Source: Apostichopus japonicus (Eukaryota > Echinodermata > Holothuroidea > Aspidochirotida > Stichopodidae). Taken from it: a stretch of 64,000 nt of DNA. Below the pieces are notes generated by a model. It had not been told where the DNA came from. It saw only the letters and a list, made by a program, of their open reading frames with translations, and searched no databases. The stretch lies in the NCBI RefSeq assembly GCF_037975245.1, contig NC_092569.1, positions 33,501,668 to 33,565,667 on the forward strand, written 5' to 3'. Both the position numbers and the translations under genes were made by a program. Positions 3,501 through 64,000 of the stretch are shown in pieces (position 1 is the stretch's first letter; the number at the start of each line of letters is the position of its first letter).

Positions 3501-3790
3501 AACTTTTCTTTCCGTTCTTATCACCTATTCTATAATAGTTAACAAGTTAGAAATAGTTTATTTATTTGAATCAAAAGCAAAATCAGATTTTATTTCAATG
3601 AGCTATAACATTCTCTTTTGAATATTTAAACTTAAAATGATAGGATCTGTTCAAGTGAATGTGCAATAGATTGGCGTATGTCCTGTATTTTGTGATACAT
3701 TGACCTTCGTACAATCTTCTTAACTTGAAATTGTTTCTTCAGAATGTACTTTACTAAATCGCACATTCCTTTAAATGTTTGTTTCCTCAG

Positions 3791-3821
3791 ATATCGTCAA
3801 GCACAAGAGTCAACGATTCAA
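3791..3821 (+). CDS. 31-nt microexon of FReD-A
   Basis: Flanked by TTTCCTCAG and GTAAGT. In phase 0 it encodes ISSSTRVNDS plus one base, which joins the phase-1 acceptor at 4670 to make Asn. The copy-B microexon (36417-36447) encodes the same peptide, and FReD-C has an exon of exactly the same length at 62621-62651. Confidence 0.8.
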
Positions 3822-4669
3822 GTAAGTTTTTTTTTTCTGTAAGGGTAACGATTAATATAAACTACTGAAAACTAACCAATTAACAGAAATGTGGAACCAT
3901 CAAGATGTAGGCTACTTCATATGTGGTACTTTCTCCTATTTCAATTTGTAAGATAAATAATGATTTACAATTCTCAATAATGTCCTTGTACTGTGTATTA
4001 AAGTAGCTTTAGCGCTGATTGGGGTTAATTGTAGATTCTCAGCGATAATAAAACTGAAAGAATTACAAGTCATTAGTCAATTCATATTTCCAGAATAAAG
4101 ATAGTTCCGATTATATTTATTCATACTTGTTATTTGTGCAAAATAAGTTAGCCTGACGTTTGGATTGTAACAGGATCTTCTTCAGAGGCTAAATGGCAAG
4201 TAACAGTAACAAAAGAGACAAAATACGCACTTTGTTTAGACATTGCATACGGTAGGCTCGTTCAATAATTTGGCAGTTTCAAATCTCACTTACTGCTGAT
4301 GAACGTAAGATTGTGTTAAGGTGAAAATAGGGCCAAATCAAACCCTCATGTCAAGAAAAGCTATTAGTAATCATGTTTGCTTCTTTGACCATGTCGCCGC
4401 AGAAACATGGTAGTTCTTTGCGTTAGATTTTCATTTCATATAAAATCTACTTGCTGAAATTTGCCTCCATGAATATTAGCCGAGATGATTGAAAACATTC
4501 AGTTATGGTTTATAGTAGTTACGACTTTTTTTTTACAGTGTAATTTAAACAAAGCTGTTGCAAAGTAGCAATCATATTTATGTTGAAAGAATTTGTTAAT
4601 ATGGAGCTGATTCTGCAACATTTGTACGTTATGTTCTGATCTTCTTTTTAACATTTTTCCCGTTGCTAG

Positions 4670-5509
4670 ACTTGCAGTATTTTCTATTCCAAACTCCGGA
4701 GTATCCAAGGGATTGTCATGAAGTACTTAACCAATGCTCTTCTACCAACGTTAAATCAGGTGCATACCAGATTAAACCTGACCAGTATCCGGAACCATTT
4801 CAGACATATTGTGATCATAACACTACATATGGAGGTTGGACAGTAAGTAATGTATTTCAAGACGTGAACTCTTACAATATCAGAGTTACTCTCCAATATA
4901 CACTTTGTAGAACACACTGGAATTGTCAGTACATTTTAGTTGTAGATTGTGTTGGATGATATACCTTGTACGATGTATGGGTATTTGAAGAAGCCTAATA
5001 TCGAAAACAAAACTACCCAGAGTAACTACGTTGACTTTTAATACGATTAGAAAACTTATTGTATGTGCACACCTCGGATAGTGATATGAATATGTATACA
5101 GATAACATATAACGCAACATCAGAAATATGTTCTATCCTATTCGTATTTATTGATGTGAGCCGCACGTTTTGGCTATAAGGTTTAGTTCATAAGATAATG
5201 AAATTTATCCGTTAGTTGTCTACCTATATTTTTGAATTCTTCAGGTCATACAACGACGTGTTGATGGATCCATCGGTTTTAATCGAACCTGGGACGAATA
5301 CAAAAACGGTTTTGGTTTCTTAGGCAGTGAATTTATGATTGGTAATGAAAAGTTAGCTCACTTGATAAATCAAAAGAGGTACCAGCTGCGCATCGAGCTA
5401 GAGAATTATGCAATCCAGTCATATTCCTTGACATACGACAACTTTCGCATTGCAGATGAATGGGGGAATTATTCTATAACAAGTCTTAGTGATATCGAAC
5501 GAATAACAG
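4670..5509 (+). CDS. FReD-A first fibrinogen-like domain (two exons, C-terminal part absent)
   Basis: Exon 4670-4842 is 173 nt, from phase 1 to phase 0, and encodes LQYFLFQTPEYPRDCHEVLN, continuing with two more Cys and ending GGWT. Exon 5245-5509 is 265 nt, from phase 0 to phase 1, and encodes VIQRRVDGSIGFNRTWDEYK continuing to the ITG end. These match the A and start of the B subdomain of fibrinogen C-terminal domains. The P subdomain with its calcium site never follows: the next exon is a TIL module joined in the same phase 1. Intron 4843-5244 shows nothing else. Confidence 0.85.
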
Positions 5510-5871
5510 GTTAGACATTTTTTTTAAATTATTTTCTCCGTATGTTTGTACTCAAAACGGAAATTGAAGCATGTTAAAGAAAGGTTTCAATGGAAGAAAT
5601 GAATATCATCCACAACTGTATTTATTGATTCCCATAGTCGAATACTTGAAAATGTTATAATATTCTGTATGTGTGACATTAATGAGTATAAGTTGAATGA
5701 GTCTAAACAATAACAAATCCGGTTCACATTTGATCCTTTGTTAACAGTCAGCAATTGTTCCGAGCGGCCAGAGCATTACAATGGTAACAAGATTCGATAG
5801 TAATGTAACGTAATAAAAGTGAGTTAACACTTCAAGCTAGGATTACATTTTGGTGGTTTCAATTTTACCAG

Positions 5872-6080
5872 ATTTACCCATTACCTGGTGCTCATCCAAC
5901 AAGGATAATTATGATAATACATGTGAAAGAACTTGTGAGAATCCGAATAATTGTGCCATACCGGATCCAGCGGAACCAGAGAGATGTCTTGGTCCAGAAA
6001 ACCACATGATTTTTGGAGATAGCTGCATACCTCAAGAGCAATGTGGCTGTTACGCCCAAGGGGAAGGCGTCGTATTAGCA
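5872..6080 (+). CDS. FReD-A TIL (trypsin-inhibitor-like, VWF/zonadhesin type) exon
   Basis: Phase 1 to phase 0, 209 nt. It encodes DLPITWCSSNKDNYDNTCER and ends with SCIPQEQCGCY, the usual TIL ending. The codon at 5991-5993 is GGT (Gly). The duplicate at 38617-38619 has TGT (Cys) in the C-x-C pair (RCLCPENH), so one disulfide of this module is probably lost. TIL modules occur in secreted, multidomain adhesive or protease-inhibiting proteins; no function can be assigned here. Confidence 0.8.
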
Positions 6081-6460
6081 GTAAGTTTATTTGATGCAGT
6101 TCACAAGTCTTAATATATAACATGAAAGTACACTATAACTTAAAATCTTGGATTTCAATTGATTGACCTTACTCTTTATTATATTTGTAATTAATTCTCA
6201 TTATTATTGTTGATATTGATTGTCCCCATATTTCGGTTGTACATGTTCTTGCAAAAGTCTCCTAATTGAGACCTAGCAAAATAAGGCATCCAAAGCAAAT
6301 ACATCAATAATGATGAACTTTACATAAGATATATAAAACGCTCACGACCATTTAATAGTAGAAATTCAGTTTTACTCAAACAGCGTTATCAAGCGTTGTA
6401 CCAAATAAGCATTGATTTTACTTTCACTGGAATATGCCGTTTAACATTTATCATTTCCAG

Positions 6461-6493
6461 GAGAGTGAAACTTGCATTAATTATGACTGTTAA
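6461..6493 (+). pseudogene. Relic of an EGF exon start in FReD-A
   Basis: CATTTCCAG is followed by GAG AGT GAA ACT TGC ATT AAT TAT GAC TGT TAA. This matches the first codons of the live exon at 7029 (EGESYINSDC) but stops at once and then loses similarity. The preceding intron also resembles the intron before 7029, so an intron-plus-exon unit was duplicated and then decayed. The same relic is at 39088-39120. Confidence 0.65.
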
Positions 6494-6567
6494 ACTTGTC
6501 GATTATCGCAATACATTTACATAATGCATTTACAGATTTATTTTTCCCACTGAATATCTTATATTAG

Positions 6568-6777
6568 GAAGGCGAGTTTTACATCAATTCAAGATGTACA
6601 CGAAGATCAACTTGTAGCAACAACCAGATTATAGAGGCGAGTTACTAGTGTAGTGATCACGCAACCTGTGATGAGAGGAACGGTGTCCGTAAATGTTACT
6701 GCAATCAAAACTACGAAGGGGACGGAGTGAGGTGCACCCATAACTGCTTCGTTGCTGCCAAAGGAAGTGTAGTCAGG
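6568..6777 (+). pseudogene. FReD-A EGF-like exon with an in-frame TAG
   Basis: The exon is 210 nt, phase 0-0, between TTAG and GTCAGT. It encodes EGEFYINSRCTRRSTCSNNQ, then a stop (TAG, 6646-6648), then CSDHATCDERNGVRKCYCNQ and NYEGDGV. FReD-B has CAG at the equivalent codon, so a single C-to-T change explains the stop. The rest of the exon is still well conserved, which suggests the stop is recent or the exon is skipped. Confidence 0.85.
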
Positions 6778-7028
6778 GTCAGTACGATTTTTTTTTAGGG
6801 TATCTTAAAAGCTTTGGCTGTAATTCATTTACACTTAGCGAAAATACATAGCATGGCAACGCAATTATGATACACCAAGATCGATGAACGTTATTAAGTA
6901 TATTTAAAATGCGCATGAACGTATATAAGTGTTCATCCAGTGCGTCGTCAAAAGTGGTAAAAATGTTACAAATTCACACATATTTAACTATCTTCGGAAT
7001 ATGTAGTTTTAACGTTTATCTTTTCCAG

Positions 7029-7832
7029 GAAGGTGAATCATACATTAATTCTGACTGTTCTTTACGGATAACTTGCAATAGTAACGCACTTACAAATGAG
7101 AGTTACATTTGTAGCACAGACGCAACCTGCGAGAGGCGGAATGATGTCCGTAGATGTTACTGTAACGAATGGTTTGAAGGCGATGGTGTTGCATGTATCC
7201 GTAGTGGACCGAGAGATTGTTCTGATCTCCACACAGCGGGTAGAAGAAATAACGGAAAATATACCATTTATCCCGCTGGAAGCTCCGGGTCTGAAGTTTT
7301 TTGTGAAATGTCTAGTGGGGGATGGACAGTAAGTTTAGCCATTGACAAGCAAATGCTTTAACTTGTGTTTTCTCATATGACAGGGCTTTCTTTACTAACA
7401 TTGGAAGTGAATCATAAAATTTTTTAATTAAATAGTTCCATCTTCCTATCACTTTAAAACAAATCAAATTATTGACCTTCACCAATTGATTTATCTTACT
7501 TATTGTAGTACAAAAGATATTTCATATATTACTCACTTGCAATCCATAAACTAGTTGATTCTCTTTGTAGATTTTGCAACGACGTACAAGTAGATCCGTC
7601 AGTTTTTATCGAAACTGGAATGAGTACAAAAACGGGTTTGGAATTCCCACAGGAAATCATTGGATTGGCAACGATAAAATATACAAATTGACAAATCAAA
7701 AAACCTACCAACTCCTAATAGAAAAGACAAACACGGAAGGATCAACATACCACAGCCGCTATTCATTTTTCAGTATCAGTAACGAAAGAGACAAATACCA
7801 ACTGACATTGAGTGGTTACAATGGAAATGCTG
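7029..7832 (+). CDS. FReD-A EGF-like module and first two exons of its second fibrinogen domain
   Basis: Exon 7029-7328 (300 nt, phase 0-0) encodes EGESYINSDCSLRITCNSNA, an EGF-like run with ATCERRNDVRRCYCNEWFEG, then GPRDCSDLHTAGRRNNGKYT and GGWT. Exon 7571-7832 (262 nt, phase 0 to 1) encodes ILQRRTSRSVSFYRNWNEYK and ends in YNGNAG. Both are open and keep the canonical GGWT, which FReD-B has changed to VGWT. The third exon of the domain, with calcium site and ligand pocket, is deleted downstream. Confidence 0.85.
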
Positions 7833-8890
7833 GTATGTATTGTGCTGAATGTCAATCATACGCAGACTTGTAGTTATTACATAATATTTTTCTACAAAAT
7901 TAACACTGTTAGCAAACTGCTAATCCACTAGAGAGCCCGTGTAAGAGAGTGTGTAAACGTAAGTTGGCTTGACGTTTTGATCCTAGCAGAATCTTCTTCA
8001 AAGGCTAACTGGAAATATTATTCTAACATAACTACATCTAGTCGTAATCACACTACATGATTTGTATTCGTATATAAATAAAATATAATAACTAGTCTGG
8101 GAACCTAGACATTTCATTAAATATGACTTTACCGTACGGTTTCAAAAGAGAAGCAAATTAAGTTCAATTGGACCATTGAATATTCGTTCATGGAAATATT
8201 AAGAGGCCTATAATATGACTATGATAATAGAAAAATATCAAATAAATCGGACGTTTTCTTGAGAGATCAATAGAGAAAAATCGTATGTGTTACATTTCCA
8301 AAGCATTACCTGCCCTATTTCTTATATGTATGAATGTTTCATCAGAGCAAAGGTATCTCATTAATTTTTAATTATCAAATGGATGTAAAAACGTCATATG
8401 AAAGATAAGACATCTCACGAAAGATGGTGGTGACAAAGATGAGAAAATCCAACACTTTACATTTGTTCCTCTTACTTGAAAACCTAAGAGTTTAAAAATC
8501 AAAGCTGTACTTTCCATTTGGCAGAAATTTAGTACTTCTAATCATCTCAAAAGTACCTTTAAATCGCTTATACTAAATATTATTCGTCGCAAAAGTGAAA
8601 GAGTTCTATACATTTTACTATTTATATCAAATATATTACTGAATAATGAACGATGTTATGAAATAAAATTCCCAAACAAATTGTCAGAATTAGAAATTAA
8701 CACTTATCTTCAAATTTTTAAACTGCGAAAGGAAAGTTAAAGAACTTCTAATAAAACCTAGCAAATCTTAATCAAGCCCAAACATGAAATAACATAACAG
8801 CAAAAGCCACTGACAGCCGTTTTTTACAACAAACTAACCCACGGTAGTTTTATTACGTCCCTTATGTAAATATGTAGACTTGACAATGAC
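7833..8890 (+). other. Former last intron of FReD-A with terminal exon deleted
   Basis: The region aligns with the last intron of FReD-B up to GTAAATATGTAGACTTGACA. It then jumps straight to the sequence that lies downstream of the FReD-B stop codon (GAAACGGTTGGCGATAT). About 560 bp present in copy B (near 41631-42188), including the whole terminal coding exon, is missing. A short TGACAA-like match at the junction fits a microhomology deletion. After the donor at 7833 the frame stays open for 13 codons (MYCAECQSYADL, then TAG at 7871-7873). Confidence 0.8.
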
Positions 8891-9313
8891 AAGGGCAGGA
8901 AACGGTTGGCGATATAATAATATGTAATAAATAAATAAGAAGCTAACATTTTATAGTCATTACATCACGTACATTATTATTAACGTTGATCTGTTATGAC
9001 TAAAGGTGATCAAATGAAGACTATCAAGGCATTAATATGTTTTGAGAGAAAATAACAACTGACAGTGAATTTTATAGCACATGGGACTCGATGACTTATG
9101 ATACTTTGTCTGTTCCTGAAACTTGCATTGAAATTGGATTGTGTTCGTTAAAATGTCATCTTTAATAATGGCACTGAGAATGATATAACATAAAATACAA
9201 TAACAGTACATGAAACATGACACCAGTATGATGACTTGTATTATTTTTTTTTTAAATGTCGCCAATATGTTTTATAGAAGCAAATGGCAACATGGGAACA
9301 ACATCCAAATAAT

Positions 9314-35900: not shown

Positions 35901-38900
35901 TTTCTTCATTTCTTTTCAAAAAGAACAGAATAAATTGTCTCATTGTGAAAAAAAAAATAATGAGAATAAGACGTATTCGAAGACATGCAAACATACATAT
36001 AATCATATTTTCAAACATTAAAGTTATTCAATAAAAACTACTTTTAATCTTAGCTATAATAATAATTATAAGCAGTAAAATCAATGTTAAATAAATATTA
36101 AGATTTTGAAACATTATATTACGGCTTAAATTTTTGGCCATTCTTATCACCTTTTTCTATTAAAATTTACAAGTTGGAAATTGTTCATTTATTTGAATAA
36201 AAAGAGAAATCAAATTTATTTTAATGAGCTATAAGATTTTGTTCTATATATTTAAACTTAAAATGATAGAATCTGTTAAAGTAAAGGTGTTATAGATATG
36301 CATATGTCCCGTATTTTGTGATACATTGACCTTCGTACAACATTCTTAACTCGATATTGTTTCTATAGAATGTACTTTACTTAATCTTACATCCCCTTTA
36401 ATTTTTGTAACTTCAGATATCTTCAAGCACAAGAGTCAACGATTCAAGTAAGTTTTTGTTCTGTAAGGGTAATGATTAATATAAACTTACGAGAAATAAA
36501 CAATTAGCAGACATTGGTTATATAACAAATAGTTAGGAAAAAAGTTTAATTTAGAAAGAATCTAGATGTATTCATATGTGGTACTTTCATCTATTTTAAT
36601 TTATAAGATAAATAATGACTTACAAAATCCAACAATTTCCTTGTATTGTGTACTGAAGTAGTTTTAGCGCTGATTGGGGTAAATTGTAGATTCTCATCGA
36701 TAATAAAACTGAAAGAAATACAAGTCATTAGTCAATATATATTTACAGGATAAAGGAAGTTCCGATTATATTTATTCATACTTGTCAGTAATTTGTGCAA
36801 AGTAGGTTGGCCTGATGTTTCAATCCTAGCAGGATCTATTTCAGAGGCTAAATGGCAAATAACAGTAACAGTAGGGACAAAACACGCACTTTGTTTAGAC
36901 TTTGTATACTGTAGGCTCGTTCAATAATTTGACACTTTCAAATTTCAGGTCGGTGCTGATGAACGTTAGATTGTTGTAAGGTGGAAATCGGTCCAAATCA
37001 TACCCCAATGATGAGGAAAGCTATTACTAATCATGCTTGCTTCTGTGACCATGTTGCCACAGAGTCACAGTAGTTTTTTGCGTTAGATTTTCATTTCAAA
37101 TAAAATAAACTTGCTTAAATTAGCCCCATGAATATTAACCGAAAATGATTGGATACATTTTCTTATGGTTCATAGAAGTTACCACGTCATGTTTACTGTG
37201 TAGTTTAGACAAAACTAATGCAATGTAGCCATATATCACATTTCTCTTGAAATAATTCTTTACATATGGCGCTGTATCTGCAACAGTTTTACGATTTGTT
37301 CTCATCTTCTTCCCCACATTATCTTGGTGCTAGACTTGCAGTATTTTCTATTCCAAACTCCGGAGTATCCAAGGGATTGTCATGAAGTACTTAACCAATG
37401 TTCTTCTACCAACGCCAAATCCGGTGTATACCTGGTTAAACCTGACCAGTATCCGGAACCATTTCAGACATATTGTGATCATAACACTACATCTGGAGGT
37501 TGGACAGTAAGTAATATATTTTCAGACGTAAACACTTACAATCACAGACGTTAATCTCCAAGACACACTTTGAAGGACACATTAGAATTTTCAGTTCATT
37601 TTTGTTTTACAGTGTGTTGGATTATGTACCTTGTACGATGTATGAATATTTGAAAGCTAATATTGGAAACAAAAGTACCCAGAATAATTACATTGAATTT
37701 TAATACAATTGTAAAATTTATATTTTCTCTGCACACCTAGGTAGTGATCTAGATATGTATTAGGATAAGATATAACGCAACATTACAAATGTGTTCTGCA
37801 AAGAGAGCCGCAAATTTTGGCTATAAGGTTTAGATCATAAGATATTGAAATCATCTGTAGTTGTCTACCTATCTTTTGAATTCTTCAGGTCATACAACGA
37901 CGTGTTGATGGCTCCATCGGTTTTAATCGAACCTGGGACGAATATAAAAGCGGAATTGGTTTCTTAGGCAGTGAATTTCTGATTGGTAATGAAAAGTTAG
38001 CTCACTTGATAAACCAAAAGAGATACCAGCTGCGCATCGAGCTAGAGAATTATGCAGGCCAGTCATATTCCTTGACATACGACAACTTTCGCATTGCCGA
38101 TGAATGGGGGAATTATTCTATAACAAGTCTTGGTGTTGTCGAAGGAATAACAGGTTAGACTTTTTTTAAATTATGTTCTCCATATCTTTGTACTCAACAC
38201 GGAAATTGAAGAATGCTTAAAGAAATGATTATCATACACAACTATATTTATTGATTCCTATAAACGAATACTTGAAAATGTAATATTATTTTGTATGTGT
38301 GACATAAATGAGTATAAGTTGAATGAGCCTGAACATTAAAAAATCCGGCTTACATTTGATCCAATGTTAACAATCAGCAAATGTTCCGAGCGGCCAGCGC
38401 ATAACAATGGTAACACGAGTCGCTAATAACGTAATTTAATATCAGTGAGTTAACACTTCAAGCTATGAATAACTTGTTTTGGTTTTAATTTTCCCAGATT
38501 TACCCATTACCTGGTGCTCATCCAACAAGGATAATTATGACAATACATGTGAAAGGACTTGTGAGAATCCGAATGATTGTGTCACACCGGATCCAGCGGA
38601 TCCAGAGAGATGTCTTTGTCCAGAAAACCACATGATTCTTGGAGATAGCTGTATACCTCAGGAGCAATGTGGCTGTTACGTTCAAGGGGAAGGCGTCGTA
38701 TTAGCAGTAAGTTTATATGATGCCGTTCACAACTCTTAATATATAACATGAAAAGTACAATATAACTTAAAATCTTGGATTTCAATTGATTGACCTTACT
38801 CTTTATTATATCTGTTATTAATTCTCATTATTATTGATGATATTGATTGTCCCCCTATTTCGGTTTTACATGTTCTTGCAAAAGTCCTCTTATTGAGACC

Positions 38901-41900
38901 TAGCAAAATAAGGCATCCAAAGGAACTACACCCTGAATAATGAACTTTACCTAACATATTTAAAATGCTCACGACCATTCAATAGTAGAAATTCAGTTTT
39001 ACTCTAACAGCGTTACCAAGCGTTGTACCAAATAAACTTTGATTTTACTTTCACTGGAATATGTCGTTTAACATTTATCATTTCCAGGAGCGTGTAACTT
39101 ACATTAATTTTGACTGTTAAACTTGTCGATTATCGCAATACATTACAGAATACATTTACAGATTTATTTGTTTCTGCTGCATATCTTAAATTAGGAAGGC
39201 GAGTTTTACGTCAATTCAAGATGTACACGAAGATCAACTTGTATCAACAACCAGATTATAGAGAAGAGATACCAGTGTAGTGATCACGCAACCTGTGATG
39301 AGAGGAACGGTGTCCGTAAATGTTACTGTAATCCAAACTACCAAGGGGACGGAGTGACGTGCACCCACAACTGCTTCGTTGCTGCCAAAGGAAGTGTAGT
39401 AACGGTCAGTACGATTTTTTTTAGGGTATCTTAAATTCTTTGCCGGTAATTCATTTAGACCTAGCGAAAATACATAGATATGGCAACGCAATTATGATAC
39501 ACCTAGAACGATGAACGTTACCTAATATATATTAAAAACGCTCATGACCGTATCTTAGTTCTAATCCAGAGTGTCATCAAACGTCGTTAAAACTGTAACA
39601 AATTAACATATATTTTACTATCTTTGGAATATGTCGTCTAACATTTATCTTTTCAGGAGGGTGAAACATACATTAATTCTGACTGCTCCTTAAGAATAAC
39701 CTGCAACAGTAACGTACTTACTAGTGAGAGGTACAGTTGTAGTGCAGACGCAACCTGCGAGGAGCGGAATGATATCCGTAGATGTTACTGTAACGAATGG
39801 TTCGAAGGTGATGGTGTTACATGTACCCTCAGTGGACCGAGAGATTGTTCTGATCTTCACACAGCGGGTAGAAGAAATAACGGAAAATATACCATTTATC
39901 CAGCTGGAAGCTCTGAGTTTGAAGTTTTTTGTGAATTGTCTAGTGTGGGATGGACAGTAAGTTTAGCCATTGGCAAGCAAATGCTTTAACTTGTGTTTTC
40001 TCATATGACAGGACTTCGTTCACTAACATTGGAAGTGAATCATAACATTATCTAATTAAATTGATCCATCTCCCTATCAGTTTAAAACAAATCGGATTAT
40101 TGACCTTCACCTATTAATTTATCTTACGTATTGCAGTACAATGATACATTTCATATATTACTCACTTGCAATCTATAAACTAGTTGATTCTCTTTGTAGA
40201 TTTTGCAACGACGTACAGGTAGATCCGTCAGCTTTTATCGAAACTGGAATGAGTACAAAAACGGGTTTGGAAATCCAACAGGAGATCATTGGATTGGCAA
40301 CGATAAAATATACAAATTGACAAATCAAAAAACCTACCAACTGCTAATAGAAAAGATAAACACGGAAGGATCAACATACCACAGCCGTTATACATCTTTC
40401 AGAATCAGTAACGAGGAAGACAAATACCAACTGACATTGGGTGGCTACAATGGAAATGCTGGTATGTATTGTGCTAAATGTCAATCATACGCAGACTTGT
40501 AGTTATTACGTAATATCAGCACAACTACCTGTAGTCGTAATCACACTGTAGGATTTGTACTCGTACATTTACTCTGGTCATGTTACAAATATAGTGTAGA
40601 TACTAATGTATGTACTAGACCTCCTGCCTACAGTCTCGTACCCAGTGTTGATTGTACAATTGCTTTACACTTCATCACGTGTTTGTATAATTATATATCG
40701 TAACATCATGATATACCATATCAACCTTGCACTTTCATTCAGACTTTGTCAATCTTAGAAAAGAAAGACAAAATAACTCGCCTGGGAACCTAGAAATTTC
40801 ATTAAATATGACTTTACCGTTTTCAAAAGAGAAGCAAATTAAGTTTCATTAAACCATTGAATATTCGTTCATGGAATTATTAAGAGGCCTATAATATTAC
40901 AATGATAATAGAAAAATATCAAATAATTCGGACGTTTTTTGAGAGATAAATTGAGATACGTCCTGTGTGTTACATTTCCAAATAGCATTACCGGCCGTAT
41001 TTATCATTATATGTATGAATGTATAATCAGAATATAGGTAAATCATTATTTTGTCATGATCAAATGGATGTAAAATCGCCAGATGAAAGATGAGACGTTT
41101 CACAAAAGATGGTTGTGACAAAGATGAAAAAATCCAACACTTTACATATTTTTCCTCTTATTTGAAAACATAGTAGTTTAAAAATCAAAACTTTACTTTT
41201 CAATTGGCAGCAATTGAGTACTTCAAACAATTAGCTGTTAACATTTCTACTCATCTCACATGTACCTTTAAAACGCTTTACTATGATATTCGTGGCAAAG
41301 CGAAAGAGTACGATAAATTTTACTATTTAAAATGTTTTTTTTTAAGTATATTTTAAATATATATTATTTAATTATGAACGATGTATGAACTAAGGTTGCC
41401 CAGAAATCGTCAAAATTGAAACCTCTCCAGAAACTCTGAAAACTGACACCTATTTTCAAATAATAAACTGCGAAAGGAAAGCTCAAGAACTTCCATATGA
41501 AACCTACAAAGTAATAGTCAAGCCCAAACATGAACTAACACAACAACAAACGCACTAACAACCGACAATTACAGCAAACTAACCCACGGTAGTTTAATAA
41601 CGTCCAGTATGCAAATAAGATCTGACAAAAATATAACTTCACTAAGTATTTGCTCACATCCTTCCAGGTAATAACGCAATGGGAGCAAATTCAGGACATC
41701 GATTTAGTACGCACGATCAAGATAATGATGGATCGAGTACCTTCGACTGCGCAGAAAAACACCGTGGTGGCTGGTGGTATCCAGACGATAGTAGTACGGG
41801 CTCATCCAGCAACTGCTACTCATTCAGCAACCGCGTAGCTACAGGTGACTACGAGTACTCTGACTGTTCCTGTTATATTGATTATGATAGTTTTTATAAT

Positions 41901-42164
41901 TGCCCTTCTAGTCGTCCACATTTTAAATGCTATGATTGTGACGGCTGTGGTTATTATTATTGTTATTTTTTTGTAAGTTTCTATAAAGACAGATGCTGCG
42001 CAAACGAAAACCCGATCTATGAAACAACCTTCTATTCTTGCGGATACTCCAATCTCAACGGTGACTACTCGTTGAACGATAACCGCGGTATCTTCTGGAA
42101 GAATCTTCGCGGTTCGGATTGCGGTATAACAACAACAACAATGAAAATTCGCTCAGTTCAATGA
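29917..42164 (+). CDS. FReD-B: secreted protein with truncated fibrinogen domain, TIL, two EGF-like modules and a C-terminal fibrinogen domain
   Basis: Nine exons: 29917-29988, 36417-36447, 37334-37506, 37889-38153, 38498-38706, 39195-39404, 39657-39956, 40200-40461, 41668-42164. All borders are AG/GT, all phases match, and the sum is 2019 nt, giving 672 residues. Layout by residue: signal peptide 1-24, linker 25-35, partial fibrinogen domain ~36-181, TIL ~181-250, EGF-like 251-320, EGF-like 321-~375, second fibrinogen domain ~376-672. The last domain has the calcium-site run HDQDNDG (523-529) and ends FWKNLRGSDCG. Proteins with such domains are secreted lectin-like or adhesive molecules in invertebrate immunity and matrix; the ligand here is unknown. 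The canonical GGWT of the second domain reads VGWT. The pocket loop has an 85-residue insertion. A possible poly(A) signal, AATAAA, is at 42552-42557. Confidence 0.88.
29989..36416 (+). other. FReD-B intron 1 with a tandem ~1.9-kb duplication
   Basis: 30.68-32.6 kb and 32.62-34.45 kb are diverged tandem copies. Matching blocks include GCCTAAACG (30688/32621), AAGAAACAACTTG (30860/32800), GAAAACCTCAGTATTGTAAC (31270/33178) and CATGCATCTGTTA (31868/33717). The end of the second copy also matches segment A at 576-1340. The poly-T tract in the first copy (about 31237-31256) is missing in the second. No coding exon is supported here; the frames at 31095-31463 and 34998-35294 look like chance openings. 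Confidence 0.8.
36417..36447 (+). CDS. FReD-B 31-nt microexon
   Basis: AACTTCAG before and GTAAGT after. It encodes ISSSTRVNDS and one base of the next codon. It is identical in protein to the microexon at 3791-3821, with one synonymous change. Confidence 0.8.
39088..39120 (+). pseudogene. Relic of an EGF exon start in FReD-B
   Basis: TTTCCAG then GAG CGT GTA ACT TAC ATT AAT TTT GAC TGT TAA. It is the same broken exon start as at 6461-6493, so the relic predates the segmental duplication. Confidence 0.65.
41668..42164 (+). CDS. FReD-B terminal exon with Cys/Tyr-rich insertion in the ligand-pocket loop
   Basis: Acceptor CCTTCCAG, phase 1, open to TGA at 42162-42164. It begins NNAMGANSGHRFSTHDQDND and reaches FDCAEKHRGGWWYP, the normal fibrinogen P subdomain. 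The usual next element, a Cys a few residues later followed by GYSNLNG, appears only after an 85-residue insertion (41781-42035). The insertion holds ten Cys and fourteen Tyr, with CYDCDGCGYYYCY at its centre and a CC pair. The domain then resumes as SCGYSNLNGDYSLNDNRGIF and ends KIRSVQ. No plausible intron would remove the insertion: no AG acceptor lies next to the resuming Cys codon. The frame is open over all 497 nt. Confidence 0.88.
41781..42035 (+). other. 85-residue Cys/Tyr-rich insertion
   Basis: It starts at the Pro after GGWWY and ends before SCGYSNLNG. Cysteines occur singly, as C-x-C, C-x2-C-x2-C and CC, with Tyr, Ser and Asp between. The normal spacing between the two framing cysteines is about 13 residues; here it is 97. 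Even the ten inserted cysteines could pair among themselves, so the parent disulfide could still form. Confidence 0.85.
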
Positions 42165-44949: not shown

Positions 44950-45082
<133 letters not shown>

Positions 45083-63000: not shown

Positions 63001-64000
63001 TAAATTCAAGTTATTTGGTCTTTGAATGTTTTATTGCAGGCTGAAAACTAATCAAAGCTAATGATTCAAAACAGTTACATCTGAGAATTCAATAACGATT
63101 ACCGTATATAATTTTATTCGCGAAATATTCTCCTATATTGCAGTTGAGTAATAGTTGCCATTTAAACTGATGTATAACCTTAACTCTTATGTAACGAAAC
63201 TAGTTCTCTTACAATTGGCTGAGAATCTATGGCAATACTTTCGTTAACTGAAATGATTTTTCAGTCCCAATAAAATGTTAACTTTGTTTTACTTTCCATA
63301 CAGGTTCTTCATACTTTGTTTTTCAACAACCTGCGTATCCGAGAGATTGCAAAGAAGTATCGAATGCATGTTCCTCTACCCACAATGCATCTGGAGTGTA
63401 CCTTATTAAACCAGATGGCTATCCAGAACCGTTTGAGGCTTACTGCGATAATGATCTTGATACTGGTGGTTGGACGGTATGGCTGATTACTTGATGTTTC
63501 CTTTTCAACTTGAAATAGATATGTAAAAAATTACTTTTTTACAATTTTGCATACAGTAATATATAGCGGTGTAATAAAAATCGTTATTTCAAATAGAATC
63601 TTGATATTTGTTATTGAAGCTAGTGTTTAAAACAATGATGTTATATATTTTGAAATTTAAGAACAGTGTAGTTCTTCTTCCAAGTAAACAGTAAACTTCT
63701 AGCCCACACACTATAAACTGAAGTTAGAAATATAAATTCTTATTTCTGTGTAATAATTGTTAGCAACAAATCGCATGCAGAATGGAACGTTAACACTTAA
63801 CTTCTCGTTGTAGGTACTACAGCGACGAAGATTAGATTCTGTTAAATTTAATAGAAGTTGGAAAGACTTCAGAAATGGATTTGGCTTTCTAGGGAGTGAG
63901 TTCTGGATCGGAAATGAGAAAATTGCCTACTTAACAAATCAAAAGCGGTACCAACTGAGAATGGACTTTGAGAACATTGCTGGAGAAACTTACTATGTAA
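56955..64000 (+). CDS. FReD-C: third fibrinogen-related gene, first four exons, incomplete at right edge
   Basis: Exons 56955-57020 (signal peptide), 62621-62651 (31 nt), 63304-63476 (173 nt) and 63814 to beyond 64000. Sizes and phases equal those of FReD-B although the sequence is clearly more diverged. The linker reads VIVSAEVRSS, the next exon SSYFVFQQPAYPRDCKEVSN and GGWT, the last VLQRRRLDSVKFNRSWKDFR then NGFGFLGSEFWIGNEKIAYL. It is open to the last base. Whether TIL, EGF and a second fibrinogen domain follow cannot be seen. Confidence 0.82.
57021..62620 (+). other. FReD-C intron 1
   Basis: 5.6 kb of AT-rich sequence. A T tract followed by a G tract lies at about 59981-60010. Small frames (for example 57940-58134 plus and 61066-61296 minus) show no protein features. 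No tandem duplication like that of FReD-B intron 1 is visible. Confidence 0.6.

Follow-up and report, generated by a model that had tools for sequence, protein, structure and literature searches.

The sea cucumber Apostichopus japonicus carries a large and variable family of loops in its tandemly duplicated genes for fibrinogen-related proteins (FREPs), and the 85-residue, cysteine- and tyrosine-rich insert described here is one member of it. The insert is encoded by the second gene (gene 2, + strand) of a 64,000-nucleotide stretch of contig NC_092569.1 (C9:33501668-33565667; hereafter the window), in the terminal, P-subdomain exon of the second of two fibrinogen-related domains (FReD-B). On balance we lean towards reading it as a germline-diversified, disulfide-knotted recognition loop that replaces the sugar pocket of the fold and works like the ultralong third complementarity-determining region of bovine antibody heavy chains (CDR H3). 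The first-pass annotation of this DNA had described a single odd module unlike that of any known FREP. In this genome it is a common subtype, present in at least 75 exons, although no description of a large insert in this disulfide loop was found in the literature searched, subscription papers and supplements being outside its scope.

The terminal exon (41668..42164; Fibrinogen_C, E = 5.7e-9; splice acceptor score 7.2) is open throughout. The insert (41781..42035) comprises 85 codons, among them ten for Cys and fourteen for Tyr, and is bounded by GGWWY, which ends at 41780, and by S-C-GYSNLNG, whose Cys codon lies at 42039..42041. Alignment to ficolin-1 leaves two residues for the loop at this site, and a two-residue loop is also present in L002, L003, L004 and L007, canonical FREP exons from this genome, which bears out the earlier estimate of about two. 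When the insert was shuffled with its dinucleotides preserved, 31 of 20,000 sequences were open and none held at least ten Cys together with at least fourteen Tyr; in the window, a fixed-frame stretch of 255 bases is open at 81 of 9107 places. The codon score is +0.24 per codon in frame, whereas the remaining forward frames score -0.35 and -0.29, and 3000 random 255-mers (10-30 kb) averaged -0.15, a fraction of 0.0003 equalling the score of the insert. A chance open frame was rejected on these shuffle and codon-score results, and the insert looks coding. Alignment, residue counts and both tests thereby confirm its position, composition and open frame as first annotated. On the - strand, an open frame of 110 codons (41820-42152) runs antisense to the insert with a codon score that is not coding-like; the reverse frames of the insert score between -0.18 and -0.01.

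We judge it very improbable that the insert stems from an assembly error or that an intron, perhaps an alternative one, has gone unrecognised within it. The stretch is AT-rich and offers one fair donor (41845, score 5.0) and weak frame-keeping acceptors (-2.5 to -4.7). We scanned the exon with a consensus matrix for introns of at least 30 nt, at first with a cut-off of zero for both sites; the sole frame-keeping intron above it (41767-41844) would remove GGWWY and retain most of the insert. This cut-off is unsafe, one control acceptor having scored -2.6, and a looser scan returned several weak frame-keeping introns that would remove much of the insert, the best of which (41845-41988; donor 5.0, acceptor -4.7) removes 48 residues and leaves 37 of the 85. 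No splice pair in either scan of the exon restores the canonical two-residue loop. The strong coding signal and the recurrence of the same insert, with its frame kept, in the 75 fetched exons likewise speak against this explanation, and an intron within the insert is judged unlikely. The initial statement that no splice sites would remove the insert accordingly holds for good sites, but not for weak frame-keeping candidates.

The insert sits between two framing cysteines, the first encoded at 41748..41750 and the second by the Cys codon of the S-C-GYSNLNG motif, which are equivalent to Cys401 and Cys414 of FIBCD1 and to Cys206 and Cys219 of tachylectin-5A (TL5A). In FIBCD1, whose Ca2+ ligands have been described, the Ca2+ site is joined to the acetyl pocket by the disulfide between Cys401 and Cys414, the latter preceded by a cis peptide (PMC3908420); TL5A has the equivalent disulfide Cys206-Cys219 and a binding funnel formed by Tyr210, His220, Tyr236 and Tyr248 (PMC1242226). 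All 59 aligned open copies of the loop family have Cys in both framing columns. The Ca2+ aspartates next to the first framing Cys are kept (motif DQDNDG, 41715..41732, aligned to ficolin-1), in a Ca2+ loop one residue longer than that of ficolin-1. The aromatic residues of the acetyl pocket are not: His stands at position C+4 and Gly follows the second Cys in all 59 aligned copies, and in the window exon the loop bearing Tyr236 is four residues shorter and Ser stands where TL5A has Tyr248 (ficolin-1 alignment; pocket numbering transferred from TL5A by our own alignment). Canonical FREPs of the same genome retain four of the pocket aromatics in L004 and three in L003. Since the pocket residues are lost, the loop would replace the old site and not add to it; the new binding surface proposed for the ligand pocket is favoured in that modified form. 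The nearest solved structures to the C-terminal half are angiopoietins, which bind a protein receptor.

With TL5A, FIBCD1 and ficolin the inserted domain thus shares the P-subdomain signature, the Ca2+ aspartates and the framing Cys pair. Unlike them it has lost the aromatic acetyl pocket and carries an extra Cys on the last strand, and the available parts of the two reports (PMC3908420, PMC1242226) describe no insert of 71-105 residues there. The same parts describe loops of the fibrinogen gamma P subdomain that are longer by 14 and 7 residues (PMC3908420, PMC1242226) and short loop insertions in some mosquito FREPs (PMC1242226).

A genome search with the window exon, after which matches were fetched, yielded at least 75 exons with the insert on chromosome C9; the count is a lower bound, 150 of 707 candidates having been scored. 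Among the matches listed, near-full-length ones were on C9 only. The 75 comprise the exon of the window, those of four neighbours (L015, L018, L023 and L028) and L030-L099, and five further loci with fragmentary matches were kept apart from them. They lie at 22.4-23.1 Mb (13 exons), 27.7-27.9 Mb (5), 29.7 Mb (2), 30.4-31.4 Mb (40), 32.9-33.7 Mb (14) and 35.7 Mb (1). Strict motifs parsed 69 of the 75 and looser ones 73, L093 and L097 being parsed by the strict set only; WWY and the SNLNG motif stand in one frame in every copy. The exon is open in 62 copies, 12 contain stops (in L039 only as the first codon of the compared segment) and L068 is frameshifted further upstream. A DNA search with the conserved start of the insert and its lead-in (41745-41868), in which 40 of 78 candidates were scored, placed all of these 40 on C9, at an identity of 92% or more.

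Comparison of these copies divides the insert into conserved and variable parts. In the window exon, a conserved N-terminal stalk (PDDSSTGSSSNC...SDCSCY, 41781..41876) is followed by a first hypervariable centre (41877..41924), a conserved KCYDCDGC block (41925..41948) whose three Cys columns are kept in 55-57 of 59 copies, a second hypervariable centre (41949..41990) and a conserved C-terminal stalk (RCCANENPIYETTFY, 41991..42035). The family consensus reads PDDSxTGSTSNCYSFSxRVATGxYxYSDCxCY at the N-terminal end, KCYNCDGC in the middle and RCCxNKNPVYETTFYS at the C-terminal end, and neither centre is conserved. Loop length ranges from 71 to 105 residues, and the 62 open exons encode 60 distinct loops of 18 lengths, whereas the segments upstream and downstream of the loop occur in 36 and 44 different versions. 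Among 78 close pairs, the two centres show 0.124 and 0.099 substitutions per site and 0.79 and 0.29 indels per pair. The corresponding values for KCxxCxxC are 0.056 and 0.08; flanks and stalks have 0.018-0.029 substitutions per site, and indels elsewhere in the exon number 0.00-0.03 per pair. In close paralogues the centre is therefore about five times more divergent than the flanks and holds about nine tenths of the indels.

The codon make-up of the centres is equally distinctive. TAT accounts for 34.2% of their 1646 codons, and TAT with its one-step neighbours for 69.9%, compared with 26.6% for the stalks and 21.9% for the flanks. The ten commonest centre codons include every one of the seven coding one-step neighbours of TAT. 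Tyr makes up 38.6% of centre residues, and one copy, L073, has a run of 12 Tyr. Twelve of the 16 stops in dead copies fall in the loop, and 11 of those 12 are TAA or TAG, which a single base change separates from a Tyr codon. On its simplest reading, the centre would be a (TAT)n tract that slips in threes and is eroded by point mutations, which create Cys where TAT becomes TGT.

Within this variation, eight loop Cys are nearly invariant (46-59 of 59 aligned copies) and others are gained and lost, so that the open exons have between 7 and 13 Cys in the loop. The Cys total of the exon is even in 50 of the 62 open long-loop copies. Under a null model that distributed the minimum of 39 Cys steps over the tree by branch length, the 47 even totals among 59 copies were in excess (P = 0.0046; null mean 29.9), and with events placed evenly P fell below 1 in 5000. 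Selection for an even Cys number would account for this excess. Even totals also prevail among the shorter-loop exons introduced below (30 of 36 open copies, with L106 and L135 left out).

All 75 long-loop exons possess, moreover, an additional Cys that precedes the MKI motif by 7-8 residues, in the context SDC, GYGC, NDC or YCN (SDC in the window exon, codon 42120..42122). The same extra Cys is found in 38 of 40 parsed shorter-loop exons, of the others L106 having been fetched incomplete and L135 reading into other sequence, and a second Cys before the MKI motif is absent from the canonical exons L002, L003, L004 and L007; the reading of L005 breaks down. The extra residue falls at what we take to be Tyr445 of FIBCD1. 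Because it aligns to a strand bearing a pocket residue, a disulfide from the loop to the last strand is plausible, with this Cys as the proposed partner of a loop Cys.

A less probable, though serious, explanation is neutral slippage: a coding TAT-triplet tract that grows and mutates without constraint in a tolerant surface loop, with the richness in Cys and Tyr as a by-product and no role in recognition. The predominance of TAT and its one-step neighbours, the concentration of indels in the centre and a synonymous rate (dS) that is raised there all fit it, and so do the dead copies, with stops or a frameshift, whose Cys totals are just as even (11 of 13). It accounts poorly for the near-invariance of eight loop Cys, for ratios of nonsynonymous to synonymous change (dN/dS) of 0.16-0.60 in the stalks and KCxxCxxC in wider pair sets, for a Cys parity above the tree-based null, and for the extra strand Cys that goes with expanded loops. 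In the close pairs, dN/dS is 0.31 in the segment before the insert, 0.45 in the N-terminal stalk, 0.59 in centre 1, 0.41 in KCxxCxxC, 1.77 in centre 2, 1.02 in the C-terminal stalk and 0.25 in the segment after it; for the two centres it is 0.70 and 0.76 in wider pairs and 0.72 and 0.53 in all pairs.

Several observations weigh against the recognition-loop reading. The centre dN/dS is not clearly above 1, and as dS is raised there too, centre 1 included, slippage or misalignment contributes, so that positive selection by this measure is not established. The equal evenness of dead copies, which may be recent, means that parity does not separate working from dead genes. Reconstructed Cys changes per branch were odd in 11 cases and even in 11, and among 29 matched pairs seven had changed by two Cys and six by an odd number. 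Clustering cuts the independence of the copies, even clusters numbering 30 of 39 at 0.9 identity, 19 of 25 at 0.8 and 7 of 9 at 0.7. In the window copy itself the exon encodes an odd number of Cys, 13; the nearest relatives of this copy (L030-L033) have 14, with Cys where the window copy has Tyr. His at C+4 is also present in the canonical FREP L002 and hence not special to the inserted family. The genome search is biased towards open matches of full length, and the gene around an open exon need not be intact. Finally, an AlphaFold model of the exon alone reached a predicted local distance difference test score (pLDDT) of 38 and was uninformative on the fold.

A structural or adhesive function, with the loops, rich in Tyr and disulfides, acting as patches that stick or cross-link within matrix or secretions, for instance through 3,4-dihydroxyphenylalanine (DOPA) or di-tyrosine, appears improbable. 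The Tyr content of the centre and the long Tyr run of L073 would suit it, as would the companion TIL, TILa and EGF domains and the rise of A. japonicus FREPs during visceral regeneration recorded in the available part of PMC5638244. A generic adhesive, however, need not differ in Cys position between nearly all copies, and neither Gly (5.4%) nor Lys (2.9%) is abundant in the loops.

The knottin-like fold that had been suggested for the whole loop is unlikely, because the number and position of Cys vary in the centre, and the insert shows no Pfam or PDB homology: searched alone, its best Pfam match (FeS) had E = 0.057, below the cut-off of that family, and its best PDB match E = 0.17, with no sequence homology to bovine CDR H3. 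A PSP94-like ten-Cys domain, suggested by the available part of PMC5638244, was rejected, there being no Pfam match and its Cys order being different. An origin from a partly duplicated P subdomain or from TIL, TILa or EGF exons was also rejected, protein alignments being no better than those of shuffles (lowest P = 0.20 among seven domains; 0.89 for the halves of the insert against each other). Among eight nucleotide comparisons of the insert, the 3' untranslated region on the + strand gave P = 0.04, which we take as chance. A search of viral contigs found no relative. Genome contigs returned one weak cyanobacterial match, in a metagenome-assembled genome of Oscillatoriales (L001 5001-5084); this stretch resembles the Ca2+/WW region of the P subdomain (43% identity over 28 residues).

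Gene 2 as a whole encodes, in order, a first fibrinogen-related domain (FReD-A) without a P-subdomain exon, a TIL-like exon, two TILa-EGF exons and the three-exon FReD-B, whose first exon is the same as the second TILa-EGF exon. FReD-A (37348-38152) is confined to exons of the A and B subdomains and passes directly to the TIL-like exon. Its exon 1 (37348..37508, 5' end approximate; Fibrinogen_C E = 1.5e-7 for the containing open reading frame) is also conserved in gene 1, and its exon 2 (37890..38152; E = 2.2e-20) covers profile positions 45-124 of 221. Queries with P exons match 41670-42161 only within the window, and no P-subdomain exon was found there for FReD-A; FReD-B is therefore the sole P subdomain found for gene 2, and FReD-A would be without Ca2+ site and pocket. 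The TIL-like, Cys-rich exon (38498..38709) scores E = 0.048 against Pfam TIL, under the curated cut-off, and is conserved in paralogues. It is followed by the first TILa-EGF exon (39195..39404; EGF_3 1.4e-9, TILa 4.9e-6), by the exon that joins TILa and EGF to the start of FReD-B (39657..39957; EGF_3 4e-8, TILa 1.3e-7, Fibrinogen_C 3e-6) and by FReD-B exon 2 (40200..40461; Fibrinogen_C 3.8e-26). All these exons lie on the + strand. Exon by exon, FReD-B scores 27.7, 92.7 and 36.6 bits against PF00147, for which the cut-off is 22. Upstream, a short block between AG and GTAAG (36417-36447), highly conserved between genes 1 and 2, resembles a small exon. Downstream, a near-perfect (AT)64 tract (44955-45082) creates long Tyr-Ile open frames on both strands and is taken as non-gene. 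TILa-EGF exons are more numerous in some paralogues (nine matches in L028, 1262-7147; four in L010, 4238-6798), and the spacer between the two domains therefore varies in length.

Gene 1 (3512..9305, + strand) is a tandem pseudogene. One of its TILa-EGF exons contains an in-frame stop, a TIL cysteine has been lost, and the whole P exon was cleanly deleted at ~8886, with about 514 nt; because of this deletion the gene was rejected as an insert-free comparator. The flanks of the missing exon are 99.7% and 99.0% identical to L018, which has stops and retains the exon (514 nt), so that the difference reflects a deletion in gene 1 and not a gain in gene 2. In L026 (C9:33431700-33441699), a further paralogue of the cluster, FReD-B exon 2 is present and no P-exon match was found there or in the next stretch, L025. 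Loss of the P exon may be recurrent.

At the other end of the window begins gene 3 (63304..64000, + strand), whose P exon lies beyond it (L010) and has a Tyr-rich loop of 28 residues. It belongs with related exons whose loops of 22-38 residues are Tyr-rich, Ser/Cys-rich or of other make-up; our set of these comprises 50 loci (L100-L149), 11 of them without clear reading. A distinct FREP class with GWWH (L103, L107, L113-L115, L117, L118, L124, L127, L129, L131, L140 and L144) has loops of 24-27 residues that are for the most part rich in Ser and Cys. In most of its members a further Cys precedes the first framing Cys, and some of its loci are on C15, C16 and C22.

According to the available part of PMC5638244, FREPs are the most expanded family of A. 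japonicus, arranged in tandem clusters with 21 on one scaffold; they very likely belong to the same gene superfamily, and loop insertion, hypervariability and Cys pattern are not mentioned in that part. As in sea urchin Sp185/333, also known to us from part of its description (PMC3091723), an echinoderm multigene family exists in tandem copies and repeats are proposed to drive its diversification. The proteins are different, however, and the microsatellites of Sp185/333 flank the genes, with other repeats within the coding region (PMC3091723), whereas here the triplet tract is the coding loop itself. The closest parallel is offered by bovine ultralong CDR H3, as far as the available part of PMC7366855 describes it: a very long loop (40-70 amino acids in cattle, 71-105 here), rich in Tyr and Cys, with conserved ends, a variable middle and a variable Cys pattern. 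In cattle, TAT, GGT or AGT becomes TGT in a single base step, and a bias to even Cys numbers is reported for bovine antibodies with shorter CDR H3 (PMC7366855); in the loop family, too, Tyr codons lie one base from Cys, and even totals predominate, in dead copies as in open ones. Unlike the bovine loops, those of A. japonicus stand on a fibrinogen and not an immunoglobulin scaffold, contain little Gly and are encoded in the genome by many germline genes; known from genome sequence, they give no evidence of V(D)J recombination, activation-induced cytidine deaminase (AID) or somatic change. The FREPs of Biomphalaria are diversified invertebrate immune proteins of the same fibrinogen-related kind, and their diversification is not known to proceed via an insert in the P-subdomain loop.

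For the recognition loop that we favour, the following mechanism can be envisaged. In a putatively secreted protein, the loop would leave the P subdomain between the two Cys that in lectins link the Ca2+ site and the acetyl pocket, and a further disulfide would probably pin it to the extra last-strand Cys beside the old pocket. Two conserved stalk segments would carry the Tyr/Cys-rich centre, in which length and Cys pattern differ among nearly all copies. Germline diversity would arise from tandem gene duplication, from in-frame growth and shrinkage of the (TAT)n tract and from single base changes that turn TAT (Tyr) into TGT (Cys), CAT, AAT, GAT, TTT or TCT, while selection would retain the frame and a mostly even number of Cys. 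The loop would then form a protein recognition surface, immune or other, in place of the lost sugar pocket, like the bovine knob. More tentatively, we propose the family as a germline repertoire of disulfide-knotted giant recognition loops on a fibrinogen scaffold, convergent with bovine CDRs, in which a (TAT)n cassette would supply the variation and an extra scaffold Cys would hold the knob above the former sugar pocket.

The expansion of FREPs in A. japonicus was already known and has been linked to regeneration in the part of PMC5638244 available. Placed exactly where the ancestral pocket lay, a hypervariable loop rich in disulfides would provide a directly testable answer to the question of how FREP specificities differ, and the approximately 60 distinct open knob variants constitute a natural library on one scaffold, in which a coding triplet repeat is used, or tolerated, as a diversity generator. 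If this reading is true, the stalk-and-knob design of cattle antibodies evolved a second time, on a fold unrelated to theirs; and if the loops also differ between individuals or cells, they would represent an anticipatory receptor system in an invertebrate.

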